This document shows, in pieces, positions 38,099 through 57,500 of a DNA stretch of 64,000 nt. The stretch covers positions 1 to 64,000 of the forward strand of contig CANRPY010000003.1 in the NCBI GenBank assembly GCA_947632595.1, written 5' to 3'. The notes beneath the pieces were generated by a model, which saw only the letters and a program-made list of their open reading frames with translations, was not told the origin of the DNA and did no database searches. The stretch is from an uncultured Bacilli bacterium. GTDB taxonomy: Bacteria > Bacillota_I > Bacilli_A > RF39 > UBA660. The first letter of the stretch is position 1; each line of letters begins with the position of its first letter. The translations under genes were made by a program, and so were the position numbers.

Positions 38099-39019
38099 TT
38101 ATTTATCGATTGCGATATTCAATAATTCTAAGATACGATTAAGATCTTTTTCATTTACAAAATTAATTTCTATTTTATTTTTCTTAATAGATACTTTTGT
38201 TCCTAATTTATCGCTCATTTCTTCTTCTAAATAAGAATATTCTCTATTTTCTTTTTTACGATGTTGTGGGTTTGTCTTGATAATTTTTGGTTCTTGTGTT
38301 AAAGATTCTAATTCTCTAACACTGATTCCTTCCTTGATAATTTTCTCTTCTAGTTCTTTTTGTTGTGTTTTATTATCTAATTTACTTAGTACTCTGGCAT
38401 GTCCCATCGTGATTTTTTTTTGATTAATATCTTCTTGAATTTCGATTGGTAATGTTAAAAGACCTAGCATATTGGTAATATGACTTCTACTCTTTCCTAG
38501 GCGTTTTGCTAAATCTTCTTGCGTTAATGTTAGGGTTTCTTGTAATTTTTTATATGCGGTTGCTTCTTCAATTGCTGTTAAGTTTTCTCTTTGTAAGTTT
38601 TCTAGAAGAGCTATCTCCATCATCTGAGTATCATTAAATTCACGGATAATAGCTGGTATTTCTTCTAATCCCGCCATAAGAGATGCTTTTACTCTTCGCT
38701 CACCAGCTATAATTTCATATCCTTTAATTGATTTTTTAACAATAATTGGTTGAAATACTCCATGTTCTTTAATGGAATCTGATAATTCTTGTAAGGCCTC
38801 TTCATCGAAGACTTTTCTTGGCTGATAAGGATTGCTTCTTAATTCACTTAATTTTATGTTTACAATTTCTTCTTTTGGCGTTTCGCTTACAATTTTTTCT
38901 TCCACCGTACTATAGTCTAGTACTTCATTGTTAAAAAGTTCTTCTAGTCCTTTTCCTAATGCTCTTCTTCTTGGAATTCCACTACTCGATATATTATTGT
39001 TGGTTTCCATTTCTTTCAA
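38099..39019 (-). CDS. parB: Chromosome partitioning protein ParB/Spo0J
   Basis: LRSNPYQPRKVFDEEALQEL; IAGERRVKASLMAGLEEIPAI; GKSRSHITNMLGLL and TMGHAR (ParB-type specificity residues). Confidence 0.95.
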   Translation of the reverse strand: MKEMETNNNISSSGIPRRRALGKGLEELFNNEVLDYSTVEEKIVSETPKEEIVNIKLSELRSNPYQPRKVFDEEALQELSDSIKEHGVFQPIIVKKSIKGYEIIAGERRVKASLMAGLEEIPAIIREFNDTQMMEIALLENLQRENLTAIEEATAYKKLQETLTLTQEDLAKRLGKSRSHITNMLGLLTLPIEIQEDINQKKITMGHARVLSKLDNKTQQKELEEKIIKEGISVRELESLTQEPKIIKTNPQHRKKENREYSYLEEEMSDKLGTKVSIKKNKIEINFVNEKDLNRILELLNIAIDK

Positions 39020-39785
39020 TCACTTCCTTTGCTAGATTGATATAGGCTTCAGCTCCCCTACTCTTTGGATCATATACAATAATTGGTTCTCCATGAGAAG
39101 GAGCTTCTGTTAGTTTTACTAATCTTGGAATAATGGTATTGTATACTTTTTCTTTAAAGAAACTACGGATATCTTCCACAACTTCAAATCCTAAATTGGT
39201 TCTAGAGTCTAACATGGTTAGTAATACTCCTTCAATATCTAATGTTGGATTTAAGGATTTTTGTGCCATCATAATGGTTTTTAATAATTGTGTAATTCCT
39301 TCTAGTGCGAAAAATTCACATTGTACAGGAATAATTACTGAATTGGATGCGGTTAAAGCATTCGTTGTAATGACATCTAATGATGGAGGACAATCGATGA
39401 TAACATAATCAAACTCTTCTCTTAATTCTTGAAGACATATTTTTAATTGTTCTCCTTTTTTAAATCCTGCAATGGTTCTACTTTTTTCTAATAATTCGGC
39501 ATTTAATCCTGCTAAATTAATGGTAGCAGGTACTACATATAAATTTTTATATTTTGTTTTAATCATTGCTTGTTGCATTGTGCATTCTTCTATTAAAACA
39601 TCATAGATACTTTTTTCAATATCTCCTTTATTGATTCCTACACCAGTAGTTGTATTTCCTTGTGGATCTAGGTCTATTAATAATACTTTTTTCCCTAATA
39701 CTGCTAATGATGCTGAAAGATTGATGCTAGTTGTTGTTTTTCCAACTCCACCTTTTTGATTTACTAATGATATAACCTTTCCCAT
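38994..39785 (-). CDS. parA: ParA/Soj ATPase
   Basis: MGKVISLVNQKGGVGKTTTSINLSASLAVLGKKVLLIDLDPQGN. Confidence 0.97.
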   Translation of the reverse strand: MGKVISLVNQKGGVGKTTTSINLSASLAVLGKKVLLIDLDPQGNTTTGVGINKGDIEKSIYDVLIEECTMQQAMIKTKYKNLYVVPATINLAGLNAELLEKSRTIAGFKKGEQLKICLQELREEFDYVIIDCPPSLDVITTNALTASNSVIIPVQCEFFALEGITQLLKTIMMAQKSLNPTLDIEGVLLTMLDSRTNLGFEVVEDIRSFFKEKVYNTIIPRLVKLTEAPSHGEPIIVYDPKSRGAEAYINLAKEVIERNGNQQ

Positions 39786-39877
39786 CTAATCACCCATTTT
39801 CATATTACTAGTTTATTGTACCAAATAATCTTTTTTTTTGAAACTCTTTTCCTCAAAAAAAAGTAGATTTCAAAAAT

Positions 39878-41176
39878 CTACTCTTTATCAATTTTAATAA
39901 TAATTTGATATGACTTTGGAAAATTCATTTCATCTGCATTTATGCTTACACCGTGATTCTTTAAGTCTTCGATTGTTTGCTTGATTTTTTTGGTTGCTTC
40001 TTCAATTGTATAATTGCCTGTTGTACTTTCTCCTAAACCAATTGGTGTGCTGTCTATTGATGGTAAGATACTTGGAGAAAGATTGTTTTGTTCTGGAAGA
40101 CTTGTGTTTTCTATCTTGATAGATGCTAACTCTGGAGATGAGAAGTAATCTTCTTTTTCTGCTTTTTCTTCCTTACTCATTGTTGGAGGAGTTGATGTTG
40201 GAATATTTAACAAGTTATCAATTGCTGCCCCACTGCTTGCTGCTTTGATATCGGTTGCATTTTGTCTTACTTCATTTACATTAATCGATGGAATCACATC
40301 TGGTAAGCCTGCTCCATTCATACCCATTCCTATATTTTGTTCTTTATTGTTTTCTCCATAATTAATAAATTTATCCATGGTCTTTTCCTCCCCTTCTGGG
40401 TCTTCATCATCTGGGTTCGTTGGAGGTGCAATTACCACTTTTCCATAATTTGATGTTTCTTCCTCAATTGTTGAAGAAGTTGGAATCAGTGGTGTAGAAT
40501 CTAATAATCCTCCAATAGATGCAGAGGCATTTTGGTCAATTGGAATATCAGAAGCATCTTTTCCTTTTGGATATTTTTCTTTGATTTCCTCTTCTAGAGC
40601 TCTCACACTCATCTTTGTTGTAATAATTCTTTCTACCATTTCTTTTTGTACAGCGACATCTGGTACATTTAGTAATGCTCTTGCATGTCTTTCTGAGATT
40701 TGCTCTTTTAATAGAGATTCTTGAATTTCTTCTGGTAAAGATAATAATCTTAATTTATTCGCTACTGCAGATTGACTCTTTCCCATTGTTCTTGCTAATT
40801 CTTCTTGAGTCATCTGATCTAGTTCTAATATTTTTTGATAAGTTCTTGCTTCTTCTATTGGGTTTAAATTTCTTCTTTGTAAATTCTCAAGCAATGCTAC
40901 TTTAGAACTTTCTTTATCATCTAAATTGCGTATAATTGCTGGTATTTTAGTCATTCCTGCCAAAGCAGATGCTTTATATCTTCTTTCTCCTGCAATGATT
41001 TCATATTTTCCATTGATGTTTCTTACAATAATTGGTTGAATTACGCCATGTTCTTTAATAGATACTGCTAATTCTTTCAATGCTTTTTCATCAAACACTT
41101 CTCGTGGTTGAAATCTATTTGGAATAATATCATCTAGATATAATTGTACTACTTCATCTTTATTTTCATCATACAT
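39878..41176 (-). CDS. noc: Noc-type ParB paralog (nucleoid occlusion protein-like) with long internal linker
   Basis: GKSQSAVANKLRLLSLPEEIQ...ISERHARALL (Noc-like HTH); C-terminus SYQIIIKIDKE; located rsmG-noc-parA-parB as in B. subtilis. Confidence 0.85.
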   Translation of the reverse strand: MYDENKDEVVQLYLDDIIPNRFQPREVFDEKALKELAVSIKEHGVIQPIIVRNINGKYEIIAGERRYKASALAGMTKIPAIIRNLDDKESSKVALLENLQRRNLNPIEEARTYQKILELDQMTQEELARTMGKSQSAVANKLRLLSLPEEIQESLLKEQISERHARALLNVPDVAVQKEMVERIITTKMSVRALEEEIKEKYPKGKDASDIPIDQNASASIGGLLDSTPLIPTSSTIEEETSNYGKVVIAPPTNPDDEDPEGEEKTMDKFINYGENNKEQNIGMGMNGAGLPDVIPSINVNEVRQNATDIKAASSGAAIDNLLNIPTSTPPTMSKEEKAEKEDYFSSPELASIKIENTSLPEQNNLSPSILPSIDSTPIGLGESTTGNYTIEEATKKIKQTIEDLKNHGVSINADEMNFPKSYQIIIKIDKE

Positions 41177-41275: not shown

Positions 41276-41926
41276 TTACATACTTTTTTTTCTCATAACG
41301 ACTAGTGTTCTTATACTATTTTCTTTTGGAAGATAAAACTTTTCTAGTTGATTTATTGTGTATTTTTTCTCTAATTTTTGTCTTACTTCTCTTGTTAATT
41401 CTTCTTCTACATTTGCTTTCATTGCAACAAAGATTCCTTCTTTAGCAACTAAATGCATCGTATAATTCACTAATTTTTCTATGTTGGCTACTGCTCTAGA
41501 AGTTACTACATCAAATTGTCCTTTATATTCTTCTCCTCTTGTATGAATTGCTGTAATGTCTTTTAAATCTAATTTTTTAATGACTTCTTGTAGATAATTT
41601 ACTCTTTTTTGTAAGGAATCAATTAGTGTTACTTTTAGATTAGGAAAACAGATTTTTAAGACTATTCCTGGGAATCCTGCTCCTGTTCCCACATCGCATA
41701 ATGTTTCTACTTTATTTAGATTCACTACTTTTTGTATGGTTAAGCTATCATAAAAGTGTTTTAAATAAACTTCTTTTTCCTCTGTAATACGAGTTAAGTT
41801 TATCTTTTCATTCCATTCTAACATCATTGAGTAAAATTCTTGTAGTTTTTGCATCTTGTCTTCACTCATTTGAATTCCTAATTTGGTTACTTCTTCTATG
41901 AATTCTTCTTTATTCATTTTTTCCAT
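41276..41926 (-). CDS. rsmG: 16S rRNA (guanine527-N7)-methyltransferase
   Basis: LCDVGTGAGFPGIVLKICFPNLKVTLIDSLQKRVNYL. Confidence 0.96.
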   Translation of the reverse strand: MEKMNKEEFIEEVTKLGIQMSEDKMQKLQEFYSMMLEWNEKINLTRITEEKEVYLKHFYDSLTIQKVVNLNKVETLCDVGTGAGFPGIVLKICFPNLKVTLIDSLQKRVNYLQEVIKKLDLKDITAIHTRGEEYKGQFDVVTSRAVANIEKLVNYTMHLVAKEGIFVAMKANVEEELTREVRQKLEKKYTINQLEKFYLPKENSIRTLVVMRKKSM

Positions 41927-47265: not shown

Positions 47266-47366
47266 TGCTTCCACCTCCCGACATAAATCTACATTATTAT
47301 AATAATAGATTCCTTGTTTTGTCAAATAAAACTTTTCTAATTTTCTTTTTTCCACTAATCCACAGG

Positions 47367-47480
47367 TATGTGGAAAACAGTTATCCACCCTGTTTATTGA
47401 AAATTTGTGGAAAATGTGGATAACTTTCTTATTCTCTTAATTTATCCCCAAAAAAATTGTGGATAACTTTGTGGATAAAC
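47367..47480. other. oriC: oriC upstream DnaA-box cluster
   Basis: TGTGGATAA at 47415-47423, 47458-47466, 47470-47478; TTATCCACC at 47381-47389; located between rpmH and dnaA at the strand switch. Confidence 0.88.
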
Positions 47481-47557: not shown

Positions 47558-48979
47558 TTGTGGGGAGATGGTAATTTGAATGTAGATATCGTATGGTCAA
47601 AATTACTAAGTAATCTTAAAGATAAGCTTACATCTCTGTCCTATAATACTTGGTTCTGTGAAACGGAATTATATCAATTGATTGATGGAAAAGCAATTAT
47701 CATTGTTCCTATGCCTATTCATAAAAGACATTTATCTGAGAATTATTCTGATATGATTTCTAACTTATTATATGAAATAACTAATGAAAATTATGATTTA
47801 ATCTTTACTTTAAAAGAGGAAATCGAAGAGGAAAAAAAGAAAGAATTAGAAGAAATCGAGAGAAAGAAAGAGAGTGAACTTAGCGTTGATTCTGTTGATA
47901 TAGAACGAAAAAATACAAAAATCTCTTCTAATTTGAACCAAAATTATACTTTTGATAACTTTATTGTTGGAAATTCCAATCGTTTTGCACATGCTGCTGC
48001 ATTATCTGTTGCGGAAAATCCTGGTAAAATCTATAATCCTTTATTTTTATATGGAAATAGTGGAGTAGGGAAGACGCATTTGATGCACGCAATTGGAAAT
48101 TTTATCCAAGAAAACTCCAATAAACGTGTTTTATATGTCACCAGTGAACAGTTTATTGATGAATTTGTTAAAACAAATCGGAAGGACGAGGGAGGAACAA
48201 ACTTCAATTATGTTGAGTTTTTTAAAGATAAATACCGAAATATCGATGTCTTAATTATTGATGATATTCAATATTTAGGAGGTGCTCAACAATCTCAACA
48301 AGAATTTTTCCACACTTTTAATAATTTATTTAATGATAGTAAACAAATTATTGTATCTTCTGATCGTAGTCCTGATGACTTAAAACTATTAGAAGAGCGT
48401 TTAATTACAAGGTTTAGTTGGGGATTACGAGTAAATATTTCTCCTCCTGATTACAATTTAAGACGAGATATTCTTAAAAAGAAAATTATTGCGAATAACT
48501 TTGAAAAAGATATTCCTGATGATGTAGTAGAGTATATTGCTTCTAATATAGGTCCTGATGTAAGGCATTTAGAGGGCGCTATTACAAGATTGGTTGCTTA
48601 TTCCACAATTATGGGTGGAGAAAAAATAACTTTAGATCTTGCTATAGAAGCATTAAAGGACTTTAATACTAAAGGAGTAGGGGAAAAGAATGATGTTCAT
48701 CGTATTCAAAAAATTGTATCTGAATACTTTCAGATTTCCGTAGAAGATATTCGAAGTAAGAAAAGAAGTTCTAATATCTCATTTCCAAGACAGATTGCTA
48801 TGTACCTCTGTAGGGATTTAACAAATGAGTCTTTTCCTAAGATAGGCATTGAATTTGGTGGAAAAGATCATTCTACTGTCATGCATTCCGTAGAAAAGAT
48901 AGAAAAAGAGATTCGTGAAAATAAAGATTTGGCTAATATTATTGAAAAATTAAAGAAAGATATCGGGATTGTGCAATAA
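47558..48979 (+). CDS. dnaA: Chromosomal replication initiator protein DnaA
   Basis: NPLFLYGNSGVGKTHLMHAIGNFI; LIIDDIQYLGG; FGGKDHSTVMHSVEKI. Confidence 0.98.
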   Translation: MWGDGNLNVDIVWSKLLSNLKDKLTSLSYNTWFCETELYQLIDGKAIIIVPMPIHKRHLSENYSDMISNLLYEITNENYDLIFTLKEEIEEEKKKELEEIERKKESELSVDSVDIERKNTKISSNLNQNYTFDNFIVGNSNRFAHAAALSVAENPGKIYNPLFLYGNSGVGKTHLMHAIGNFIQENSNKRVLYVTSEQFIDEFVKTNRKDEGGTNFNYVEFFKDKYRNIDVLIIDDIQYLGGAQQSQQEFFHTFNNLFNDSKQIIVSSDRSPDDLKLLEERLITRFSWGLRVNISPPDYNLRRDILKKKIIANNFEKDIPDDVVEYIASNIGPDVRHLEGAITRLVAYSTIMGGEKITLDLAIEALKDFNTKGVGEKNDVHRIQKIVSEYFQISVEDIRSKKRSSNISFPRQIAMYLCRDLTNESFPKIGIEFGGKDHSTVMHSVEKIEKEIRENKDLANIIEKLKKDIGIVQ

Positions 48980-50269: not shown

Positions 50270-50372
50270 GCAATAAATCTTATTTATCGACAAAAATAGA
50301 TTATTTTCGACATTTTTGTTTGTTATTTTAGTAGGCAAGAACTTTTTATTAGGTTCTGAAGGGGGATTTTTT

Positions 50373-50825
50373 ATGATTCATAAATATGAATTTAGTAAAG
50401 GAACTTTAGCAATTGTTCCAAATGATGAAGAAACTAGTTTAGTTTTAGAAGATAAGGAGAGGTATATTGTTCAAGAAAAGCCATTTCGTATTATGGAAGA
50501 TAGTTGTCATTACTTTGGAAGTAGTTATGAAGGAAGAAAAGAGGGAGCTAAGGCTATTTTAGGTGCTGAATATAAAGTACCAATTGTTGTTGAGGATTCT
50601 TCTAATTTGATTGCTTTTCCAACGACATCGCCATATGCTGATGATTGTGCTTGGATTTCTTTAAAAAGAGTCTTCAATATTTATAAGATTGATAACTATC
50701 ACACGAAAATTGTGTTTGATAATCAAGAAGAAATCATTGTTCCATGTTCCTTTCGATCTGTTGAAAATCAACTATCGAGAGCTTCTCGTTTAGATTTAGT
50801 TTTACAAAACCGAAAAAATAGTTAA
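50373..50825 (+). CDS. ComK-family competence transcription factor homolog
   Basis: DSCHYFGSSYEGRKEGAKAILGAEYKVPIVVEDSSNLIAFPTTSPYADDCAWISLKRV aligns by eye with B. subtilis ComK DRSCRFFGSSYAGRKAGTYEVTKISHKPPIMVDPSNQIFLFPTLSSTRPQCGWISHVHV. Confidence 0.88.
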   Translation: MIHKYEFSKGTLAIVPNDEETSLVLEDKERYIVQEKPFRIMEDSCHYFGSSYEGRKEGAKAILGAEYKVPIVVEDSSNLIAFPTTSPYADDCAWISLKRVFNIYKIDNYHTKIVFDNQEEIIVPCSFRSVENQLSRASRLDLVLQNRKNS

Positions 50826-53989: not shown

Positions 53990-56515
53990 ATGGATCGATT
54001 AGAAAAAAATAATATTGTTAAAGAAGTCCAAGATTCCTTTTTGGAATATTCAATGAGTGTTATTGTTGCTCGTGCTTTACCTGATCTTAGAGATGGTTTA
54101 AAGCCTGTTCATAGACGTATTTTATACTCTATGTTTGAATCTTGTTATACTCCTGATAAACCGCATAAAAAGAGTGCTAGAATTGTTGGAGATGTTATGG
54201 GTAAATATCACCCACATGGAGATTCTTCTATCTATGAAGCTATGGTTCGTATGGCTCAAGATTTTTCTTACCGTTATATGTTAGTTGATGGACATGGTAA
54301 TTTTGGTAATATAGAAGGTTATGGGGCTGCTGCTATGCGTTATACTGAGTCTCGTCTTTCTAAGATATCTTTGGAATTGCTTCGAAATATCAATAAAGAT
54401 ACGGTTAATTTTATTCCTAACTTTGATGAGAGTGAAAGAGAACCTGAAGTTTTACCTTCTAGATTTCCTAATATTTTAGTAAATGGTACAACGGGTATTG
54501 CTGTTGGTATGGCAACGAATATTCCTCCTCATAACTTAGGGGAAGTCATTGATGGTTGTGTTGCTTATATTGATAATCCTGATATTACTTTAGATGAAAT
54601 GATGAAGTATATTAAAGGTCCTGATTTCCCTACTGGTGCTATTATTCTTGGAAATAGTGGTATTAGACAAGCTTATGAAACGGGTAGGGGAACTATTACG
54701 ATACGTAGTAAGGCTACTATAGAGGAATCTAATGGCAAACAATGTATTGTTATTGATGAGGTTCCTTATGGTGTTAATACTTTAGAGTTAAAAAATAAAG
54801 TTGCTGAACTTGTTCATAATAAAATTATTGATGGAATTGCGGATTATCATTCTGATTTAAAAGATGGAATTAAAATTACAATTACTTTAAAAAAGGATGC
54901 GAATGCTCAAGTTGTTTTAAATAAGTTATATAAACATACGCAATTTCAAACAACTTATGGTATTATCTTTTTAATGCTTGATCAAGGAGTTCCTAAAACT
55001 CTTGGTTTAAAAGATATTATTGTTAAGTATATTGATTATCAAAAAGAAATTATTATTCGTAGAACACGCTTTGATTTAGATGTTGCGGAAAAAAGAGTTC
55101 ATATTTTAGAGGGTTTAAAGATTGCTCTTGATAATATTGATGCTGTTATTAAAATTATTCGTGGTGCTGATTCTGATGATGAAGCTCGTGATGGTTTGAT
55201 GAAGAACTTTGGTCTTACGGATGTTCAAGCAAATGCTATTCTTGAGATGAAATTACGTCGTTTAACGGGCTTAGAGCGTGAAAAGATTGAAAGTGAACTA
55301 AATGACTTGTTAAAGTTAATTGAAGAATTAAAGGCTATTTTAGCTAGTGATCAGAAGATATTAGAAGTTATTAAAAATGAATTATTAGAAATTAAACAAA
55401 AATATGGTGATGAGAGACGTACTCATATTGATATGACTGCTATTGAGTATATTGAAGATGAGTCTTTGATTCCTGAGGAAGATATCATTATTAATCTTAC
55501 TAAGAATGGTTATATTAAACGTTTAAGAACCGATACTTATAAGACACAAAATCGTGGTGGTGTAGGTATTAAAGGTATGTCTACTAACGAAGAAGACTTT
55601 GTGGAAAGAATTTTATCGATGAGTACCCATGATTATCTATTATTCTTCTCGAATCGTGGTAGAGTCTATCGAATGAAGGGTTATGAGGTTCCTGAATTTT
55701 CTAGACAATCTAAAGGAATTCCTGTTATTAATTTATTGCCACTTGAAAAAGATGAGAACATTCGTTCGATATTGAGTGTTAAACCGAATGATGGATTTAC
55801 TAAATATTTATTATTTGTTACGAAGAATGGTATTGTTAAACGTACTGCTATTGAAGAGTTTGATAACATTCGTAAGAGTGGTAAAATTGCTATTGTTTTA
55901 AGGGAAGATGACGAATTAATTACTGTTAAAAAGACCTGTGGAAAAAATGAAATTGTCATTGGTGCAAGTAATGGACGTATGGTTCGATTTGATGAAAATG
56001 AGATTCGAAGCATGGGTCGTAGCAGTTCTGGTGTTAAGGGTATTGAACTAGAAGGTGCTATTGTTGTTGGTGCTGATGCTGTGGAATCTGGCCATATGGT
56101 ATTAATTGTTACAGCTAATGGTTATGGAAAGAAATCTTATATTGATGAGTATCGTTTAACTCATCGTGGTAGCAAAGGTGTTAAGGCATACAATGTCACA
56201 GACAAGAATGGTATTTTGGTATCTCTTAAGTGTTTTAATCCTGATGCTTTATTAGATCTTATCTTAATGACAGATAGTGGTACTATTATTAAACTTCCTC
56301 TTGATCAAGTTTCTACGTTAAAGAGAGCTACTCAAGGTGTTCGGTTAATGAATTTAAAGGATGAACAAAAAGTTTCCACTGTTGCTTTGGTAGAAAAGGA
56401 TAAGAACGAAGAAGAATCCACAGAAAATGTGGAGGATTCTGATAATGAATTTCAATCAGATGAAAATAATCACAATGACATTGCTGATGAAGAAACAAAA
56501 GAGGAAAATGAATAA
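53990..56515 (+). CDS. gyrA: DNA gyrase subunit A
   Basis: [32 protein letters not shown]; acidic C-terminus. Confidence 0.98.
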
Positions 56516-56530
56516 TTTTCCTCTTTTCTT
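56501..56530 (+). terminator. gyrA terminator overlapping the stop codon
   Basis: GAGGAAAAT-gaat-AATTTTCCTCTTTTCTTTTTT. Confidence 0.75.
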
Positions 56531-56587
56531 TTTTATATTTAAAGGTCTAATTTAGGCCTTTTTTTGATATTAAAGGGAATTGTTACC

Positions 56588-56596
56588 TGTGGATAA
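56588..56596. other. DnaA box
   Basis: TGTGGATAA exact. Confidence 0.6.
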
Positions 56597-56616
56597 AATG
56601 TTTTTGTTGTGAAAAA

Positions 56617-56632
56617 TATTTCCCGGGAAATA
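56617..56632. promoter_or_regulatory. Noc-binding site (NBS) 1
   Basis: TATTTCCCGGGAAATA contains the B. subtilis NBS consensus ATTTCCCGGGAAAT exactly. Confidence 0.88.
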
Positions 56633-56640
56633 ATTTTTAG

Positions 56641-56656
56641 TGTTTCACGTGGAACT
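56641..56656. promoter_or_regulatory. parS 1 (14/16)
   Basis: TGTTTCACGTGGAACT vs consensus TGTTTCACGTGAAACA. Confidence 0.8.
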
Positions 56657-56674
56657 AATAGAGTGTTTGGGAAA

Positions 56675-56690
56675 TATTTCCCGGGAAATA
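56675..56690. promoter_or_regulatory. Noc-binding site (NBS) 2
   Basis: TATTTCCCGGGAAATA, exact. Confidence 0.88.
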
Positions 56691-56733
56691 AAATTTTATT
56701 TTTCAACTAATTTTGTGTATTTTAAAATTCTTA

Positions 56734-56749
56734 TGTTTCACGTGAAACT
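56734..56749. promoter_or_regulatory. parS 2 (15/16)
   Basis: TGTTTCACGTGAAACT. Confidence 0.93.
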
Positions 56750-56848
56750 TTTTTCCACAAAAAATGTTAATTTCTATTTAATTTACTTTTCTATCATTTT
56801 TATTTTTTCTTCTTTTTTTTGCTAAAAAGCGATTTTAGTTTATTCATT

Positions 56849-56864
56849 TGTTTCACGTGAAACA
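56849..56864. promoter_or_regulatory. parS 3 (16/16)
   Basis: TGTTTCACGTGAAACA. Confidence 0.97.
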
Positions 56865-56865
56865 T

Positions 56866-56874
56866 TTATCCACA
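56866..56874. other. DnaA box abutting parS 3
   Basis: TTATCCACA exact; near-match TTATCCACT at 56929-56937. Confidence 0.6.
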
Positions 56875-56956
56875 ATTTTTGTTTATAATTAGATTTTTTT
56901 CTCTTTTTTATTCACAAATATTTACTTTTTATCCACTTTATAATAAAATAATAAAC

Positions 56957-57032
56957 GTGCAATGAAAGTGATTGAACCAGGTCAGGATCGGGAGATAGCA
57001 GCCTTAAGGTCCGCCTTTCATGTGCACTTTTT
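56957..57032 (+). ncRNA. ffs: Small SRP RNA (4.5S/scRNA-like)
   Basis: ATGAAAG/CTTTCAT and GTGC/GCAC closing stems, GAACCAGGTCAGGATCGGGAGATAGCAGCC domain IV core, T-run at the end; located upstream of tadA/dnaX as scr is in B. subtilis. Confidence 0.85.
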
Positions 57033-57038
57033 CTATTT

Positions 57039-57500
57039 ATGGAGGAATTTATGGATAAACAGTACTTTTCTGTTGCTTTTCTTGAAGCAAAGAAAGCTTT
57101 TGAACAAGATGAAGTTCCAATTGGAGCTGTTATTGTGAAAGATGGCAATATTTTAGCTTCTGCACATAATCAAAAAGAAAAAGATTGTTGTTGCACTTCT
57201 CATGCAGAGATTTTAGCAATTCAACAAGCTTCTTCTAAATTACATAATTGGAGACTTGAAGATTGTGATTTATATGTTACTTTGGATCCTTGTCCTATGT
57301 GTGCAAGTGCGATAAAACAAGCAAGAATTCGTAATGTCTATTCTTGTTTAAACAATAACGACTTTCATAATCTTGAGTTAATTCAATCTATTTTTCAAAC
57401 AGATTCTGTTAATCCTGAAGTACATTTTGAATCTAATTTAGAAGTTCAAAAAGGAAAAGAAATCTTAAGTGAGTTCTTTAAAAAGCAAAGAAAACGTTAA
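57039..57500 (+). CDS. tadA: tRNA-specific adenosine deaminase
   Basis: VPIGAVIVKDGNILASAHNQKEK; SHAEILAIQQAS; TLDPCPMCASAIKQARI. Confidence 0.95.
   Translation: MEEFMDKQYFSVAFLEAKKAFEQDEVPIGAVIVKDGNILASAHNQKEKDCCCTSHAEILAIQQASSKLHNWRLEDCDLYVTLDPCPMCASAIKQARIRNVYSCLNNNDFHNLELIQSIFQTDSVNPEVHFESNLEVQKGKEILSEFFKKQRKR
57347..57365. repeat. 19-bp repeat TTTAAACAATAACGACTTT (copy in tadA)
   Basis: Identical to copies at 58707-58725, 58761-58779, 58815-58833. Confidence 0.9.

Follow-up and report, generated by a model that had tools for sequence, protein, structure and literature searches.

A candidate composite centromere of interleaved ParB and Noc binding sites downstream of gyrA in uncultured gut Bacilli

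In a family of uncultured gut Bacilli, Noc-binding sites (NBS) alternate with parS sites in the intergenic region downstream of gyrA. We favor the reading, and consider it reasonably likely, that this region would serve as a composite centromere at which ParB and Noc clamps load next to each other, confining Noc to the origin. Sequence evidence is strong for the sites and for the predicted specificity of the two proteins; that Noc binds the array, loads there as a clamp, shares it with ParB and has a role at it is what we infer from this evidence. A search of the open-access literature found no described NBS-parS array, in keeping with the original prediction, whose author knew of no locus arranged in this way.

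Binding sites and cognate proteins in the window

The sites were mapped by motif scanning of the window, the 64-kb stretch of DNA analyzed here. The 430 bp that separate gyrA from the SRP RNA gene contain two exact NBS, three parS and two exact DnaA boxes. These sites, their boundaries and the genes discussed below are as follows:

38099–39019, minus strand: parB, with HTH residues R-M-T-G at four specificity positions
38994–39785, minus strand: parA
39878–41176, minus strand: noc-type ParB paralog of 432 aa, with CTP domain, HTH, 179-aa acidic linker and C-terminal domain
41276–41926, minus strand: rsmG, giving the order rsmG-noc-parA-parB
47356–47478, no strand assigned: cluster of DnaA boxes preceding dnaA, taken to be oriC; the array is ~9 kb away
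47558–48979: dnaA
53990–56515, plus strand: gyrA (NF004043, 1142.9 bits), upstream boundary of the array
56497–56527 and 56541–56561: terminator-like hairpins of gyrA, upstream of the array
56588–56596, minus strand: DnaA box, TTATCCACA, exact
56618–56631, no strand assigned: NBS 1, ATTTCCCGGGAAAT, exact
56641–56656, no strand assigned: parS 1, TGTTTCACGTGGAACT, 14/16, two mismatches
56676–56689, no strand assigned: NBS 2, ATTTCCCGGGAAAT, exact
56734–56749, no strand assigned: parS 2, TGTTTCACGTGAAACT, 15/16, one mismatch
56751–56759, plus strand: near DnaA box, TTTTCCACA, one mismatch, 1 bp past parS 2
56849–56864, no strand assigned: parS 3, TGTTTCACGTGAAACA, 16/16, no mismatches
56866–56874, plus strand: DnaA box, TTATCCACA, exact, 1 bp past parS 3
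56908–56916, plus strand: near DnaA box, TTATTCACA, one mismatch
56929–56937, plus strand: near DnaA box, TTATCCACT, one mismatch
56948–57038, plus strand: SRP RNA gene (RF00169, 53 bits), downstream boundary of the array
57039–57500, plus strand: tadA (TadA model, under the curated cut-off; synteny), the gene that bounds this intergenic region downstream in relatives

Rescanning recovered every NBS, parS and DnaA box named in the original prediction, with identical parS scores. Both NBS are exact as it had stated, but it had placed them 1 bp too low, the correct starts being 56618 and 56676. The near-box that it gave at 56929 is present, and further one-mismatch boxes at 56751 and 56908 complete its list. 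It did not mention the placement of the array between the gyrA terminator-like hairpins and the SRP RNA gene, which adjoins the end of the array together with a promoter-like site at 56921–56949.

The sites are scarce elsewhere. At up to three mismatches, 0.33 parS are expected per 64 kb and three were observed, all in the array; no NBS with fewer than three mismatches occurs in the window besides the two described. Whether either motif recurs in the genome, a question raised with the original prediction, was answered by scanning the whole assembly (1,398,357 bases, 51 contigs, 95.3% complete). This contains two exact NBS, both in the array, one two-mismatch NBS elsewhere, and no parS at up to two mismatches beyond the three in the array. 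A chance origin of the array is ruled out by the window expectation, this genome-wide scarcity and the absence of such sites from shuffled sequences.

The parA, parB and Noc-type genes that the original prediction placed in the window all lie on its minus strand (38099–41176), at a gene position (rsmG-noc-parA-parB) orthologous to that in B. subtilis. The window has the parA-parB pair and the consensus parS near the origin that characterize a chromosomal ParABS system. NBS specificity is set by residues Q173, K179 and/or K184, and R201 (PMC7383237). The window's Noc-type protein has Q, K, S and R at these four positions and is thus predicted to be of the NBS type; Q173, K179 and R201 (Q-K-x-R) are kept in 37 of 38 Noc sequences, among which two genomes are sampled twice. 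ParB, with R, M, T and G, including R173 and G201, is of the parS type by the same published rules (PMC7383237). The ParB_N domain of the Noc-type protein is intact (PF02195, 118.9 bits), with GERR and ENLQR CTP motifs. Against profile TIGR04285 it scores 284.3 bits over positions 1–196 of 255, under the curated cut-off of 315, and we therefore speak of a Noc-type protein, not of an established nucleoid occlusion factor.

No N-terminal membrane-targeting amphipathic helix was found by alignment to solved Noc structures or among the N-termini of 36 Noc-type sequences. The alignment to these structures starts only at their residues 23–24 (residue 23 in 7ol9, a B. subtilis-type Noc), and the NRFQPR-type motif is preceded by just 15–23 residues in 34 of the 36 sequences; the family's protein therefore lacks the membrane helix on which B. 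subtilis Noc depends. The 179-residue acidic linker ahead of the C-terminal domain is poorly conserved, and no strongly conserved motif was seen in it.

Conservation, alternation and phasing of the sites

By GyrA, the nearest named relatives are uncultured gut Bacilli of ruminants, rabbits and birds, including Candidatus Onthousia and Candidatus Faecimonas. The original prediction had named absence of the array from close relatives as one result that would overturn it, and the array is present in them. Across two sets of post-gyrA loci, 154/158 have parS, 125/158 NBS and 122/158 both, counts that are drawn entirely from MAGs. In the first set, comprising loci whose sequence extends 400 bp or more past gyrA, the figures are 71/73, 68/73 and 66/73; in the second, with about one locus per genus, they are 83/85, 57/85 and 56/85. 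Intergenic density in the first set is 2.8 NBS and 4.6 parS per kb, compared with 0.046 and 0.009 in the flanks and none in shuffles.

Exact NBS occur in 120 of 147 genomes of the window organism's family, nearly all from different genera, with zero control matches; the site is characteristic of this family. A class-wide sample yielded NBS matches in 47 of 297 genomes, mostly from the same family. About one-third of the more distant genera have no NBS in the array proper, and many of these retain one nearby, for example in dnaX. Genomes without detectable Noc are more often without NBS (Fisher p = 0.011). A phylum-wide search for adjacent NBS and parS matched only genomes of the same class, one of them outside the family (G351), with an exact-core pattern so strict that it misses the window's own imperfect parS. 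In this genome, from another family of the class and with 46% GC, NBS-parS pairs lie between gyrA and tadA (L172), and the arrangement may accordingly be older than the window's family. Other variants were also seen. Single exact NBS are found away from recognizable origin genes in other families of the class (L173–L177, L179, L180), and three loci (L229, L266, L274) have no NBS after gyrA and carry regular tandem arrays of 9–11 parS only.

The two kinds of site alternate. Neighboring sites switch between NBS and parS in 269 of 406 cases, compared with a mean of 199 and a maximum of 231 in 2000 shuffles. Regular (NBS-parS)n tandem repeats, of up to 25 sites and with periods mostly of 62–126 bp, are present in 22 of 188 loci; examples are L105 (16 sites at 64 bp), L123 (18 at 75 bp) and L282 (25 at 80 bp). 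Contigs end within 1.3 kb downstream of gyrA in 28 of 80 named loci, compared with 6 upstream. As contigs so often break at the array, the true arrays are probably longer.

Centre-to-centre distances between neighboring NBS and parS cluster near 26, 36, 48, 58 and 68 bp, that is, at half-integer helical turns. Kinship among loci leaves them not fully independent, making the nominal p values optimistic: in the first set, the spacing has a period of 10.5 bp and a phase of 0.47 (Rayleigh p ~1e-6; 0/3000 in a jitter null), and the second, with nearly one locus per genus, replicates it when period and phase are fixed beforehand (p = 0.0014). When each locus contributes a single distance, phasing is retained across all loci (p ~0.002) and is not significant in the second set alone (p = 0.09). 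No 10.5-bp phase was found in parS-parS or NBS-NBS pairs. The window's own NBS-parS spacings of 24, 34 and 59 bp fit half-turns loosely.

Origin-proximal NBS, a probable restriction of Noc and competing interpretations

NBS were mapped, with one mismatch allowed, in 20 well-assembled relatives. Of 45 sites, 43 are either no more than 13 kb from gyrA, on its contig, or located up to ~160 bp in front of noc; the other two, each with one mismatch, belong to a single genome. The scattered distribution of sites known from Noc systems is thus not seen in the window genome or its relatives, all of them MAGs in whose missing sequence scattered sites may yet lie. In 38 cases an exact NBS lies inside the variable dnaX linker, nearly always translated as ISREI. 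This peptide is spelled by exact NBS DNA in 52 of 59 instances, a coding that codon usage predicts with a frequency of ~0.0008. These counts point to selection on the dnaX sites at the DNA level and rule out a mere protein motif. The embedded sites occupy differing positions across genera (e.g. L130:8648, L160:4229), and the linker is hypervariable.

In the composite centromere that we favor, parS would be the entry point for ParB dimers and the interleaved NBS that for Noc dimers. Each protein, when bound to CTP, would form a closed clamp that slides outward across a shared stretch of a few kb near oriC, placing Noc almost exclusively on the segregating origin rather than along the chromosome. 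ParB and Noc probably occupy the array jointly and act as one partition complex, given the alternation and phasing of their sites and the short distances, tens of bp, between them. ParB would recruit ParA and, presumably, SMC, while Noc would contribute a second output via its long linker. A non-random phase common to many genera fits co-occupancy better than accidental overlap. The original prediction had suggested either co-loading or competition at the interleaved sites; conservation, alternation and phasing in other genera, predicted specificity and scarcity elsewhere give co-loading strong support, and competition is now less favored.

A role of Noc in segregation or replication control appears at least as likely as one in division, for which the known membrane mechanism is unavailable to a Noc-type protein that has no membrane helix. 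Origin-restricted nucleoid occlusion resembling that of MipZ, with Noc on the segregated origin blocking FtsZ through its linker in Min-less bacteria, is nevertheless an alternative to which we give some weight, while thinking it unlikely. MinC (PF03775) was missing from all 21 genomes searched, which cover the window's own genome, its genus and several other families of the class, with positive B. subtilis and E. coli controls. FtsZ is present, NBS are near the origin only, and the acidic linker could carry a partner site. This linker, however, has no strongly conserved motif, and the sole known Noc mechanism requires the N-terminal helix (PMC4331003) that is missing here.

It is improbable that Noc at the array instead controls replication initiation, with the DnaA boxes perhaps serving to titrate DnaA locally or to regulate it, even though Noc restrains initiation in Staphylococcus aureus (PMC5540599). 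The density of exact DnaA boxes is 7.4 times higher within arrays than in the flanking sequence (26 observed, compared with a mean of 0.58 for permuted 9-mers), but these boxes occur in only 17 of 137 arrays, not as the conserved cluster that titration would call for, and the array is ~9 kb away from the DnaA-box cluster at dnaA. The DnaA titration that the original prediction thought possible is therefore weakly supported; a DnaA hub as a general conserved feature is ruled out by the same count. Being so restricted, the boxes look like a lineage-specific addition. They resemble the oriC-proximal DnaA-box clusters of B. subtilis (cited as PMC3245932) in lying near but outside oriC; they differ from them in being found in a minority of arrays, with a titration role unsupported.

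Much less credible is the idea that the sites regulate SRP RNA-tadA-dnaX transcription or act as local terminators, with no centromere involved. The promoter-like site and SRP RNA gene immediately downstream are in line with it, but the site consensus is that of two segregation proteins encoded nearby, NBS and parS form long alternating repeats, and NBS are also found inside dnaX and upstream of noc. We see hardly any likelihood that the array NBS are leftovers of a genome-wide set lost in genome reduction. The genomes are small and have few NBS each; yet the exact matches, the repeated (NBS-parS)n amplification and the codon-level selection in dnaX indicate current selection, and the link between absence of NBS and absence of Noc also speaks against the idea.

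The Noc of textbook bacteria inhibits division chromosome-wide while tethered to the membrane, and is thought to stem from a parB duplication. Here, over 100 genera have its sites only around the origin, apparently as part of the centromere, and a Noc that lacks the membrane helix. The similarity to the B. subtilis and S. aureus systems lies in the 14-bp NBS core, the key HTH residues and the CTP motifs. The differences, which for the two model species are taken from published work, concern site number and placement: B. subtilis has ~70 NBS around most of the chromosome and requires the membrane helix for nucleoid occlusion (PMC4331003), and S. aureus Noc has 41 loci over the origin-proximal half (PMC5540599), whereas there are usually 1 to ~8 NBS here, which alternate with parS and with few exceptions lie close to the origin. 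In contrast to B. subtilis Noc, the family's protein combines the lack of the helix with a linker of ~180 aa. The parA-parB operon and the clustered consensus parS close to the origin are shared with chromosomal ParABS centromeres. What sets the array apart from these is that sites for a second, paralogous loader alternate with parS, often as tandem repeats and with half-turn phasing. MipZ of Caulobacter belongs to the ParA-type ATPases and binds ParB. The two systems may share the logic of placing a division regulator on the segregated origin where MinC is lacking, except that here a ParB paralog, recruited to DNA sites of its own, would act as the regulator.

Tentatively, and with somewhat more doubt than confidence, we propose that Noc is a dedicated centromere protein in this large gut Bacilli family: a helix-less, origin-only second clamp that shares a phased, alternating satellite with ParB and is possibly ancestral to the chromosome-wide nucleoid occlusion of Bacillus and Staphylococcus. 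The role of Noc before nucleoid occlusion, and the loading of two CTP clamps side by side on one centromere, have become testable questions, and the satellite form and half-turn phasing supply experiments in vitro with a definite structural prediction.

Some genomes have an NBS, exact or with one mismatch, ~60–160 bp upstream of noc (G030:C6:67731, G145:C10:63668, G109:C3:37986, G092:C22:84038), which suggests noc autoregulation. In the window, an ORF of 169 aa lies between dnaN and recF (50316–50825), a place that it keeps across the family.
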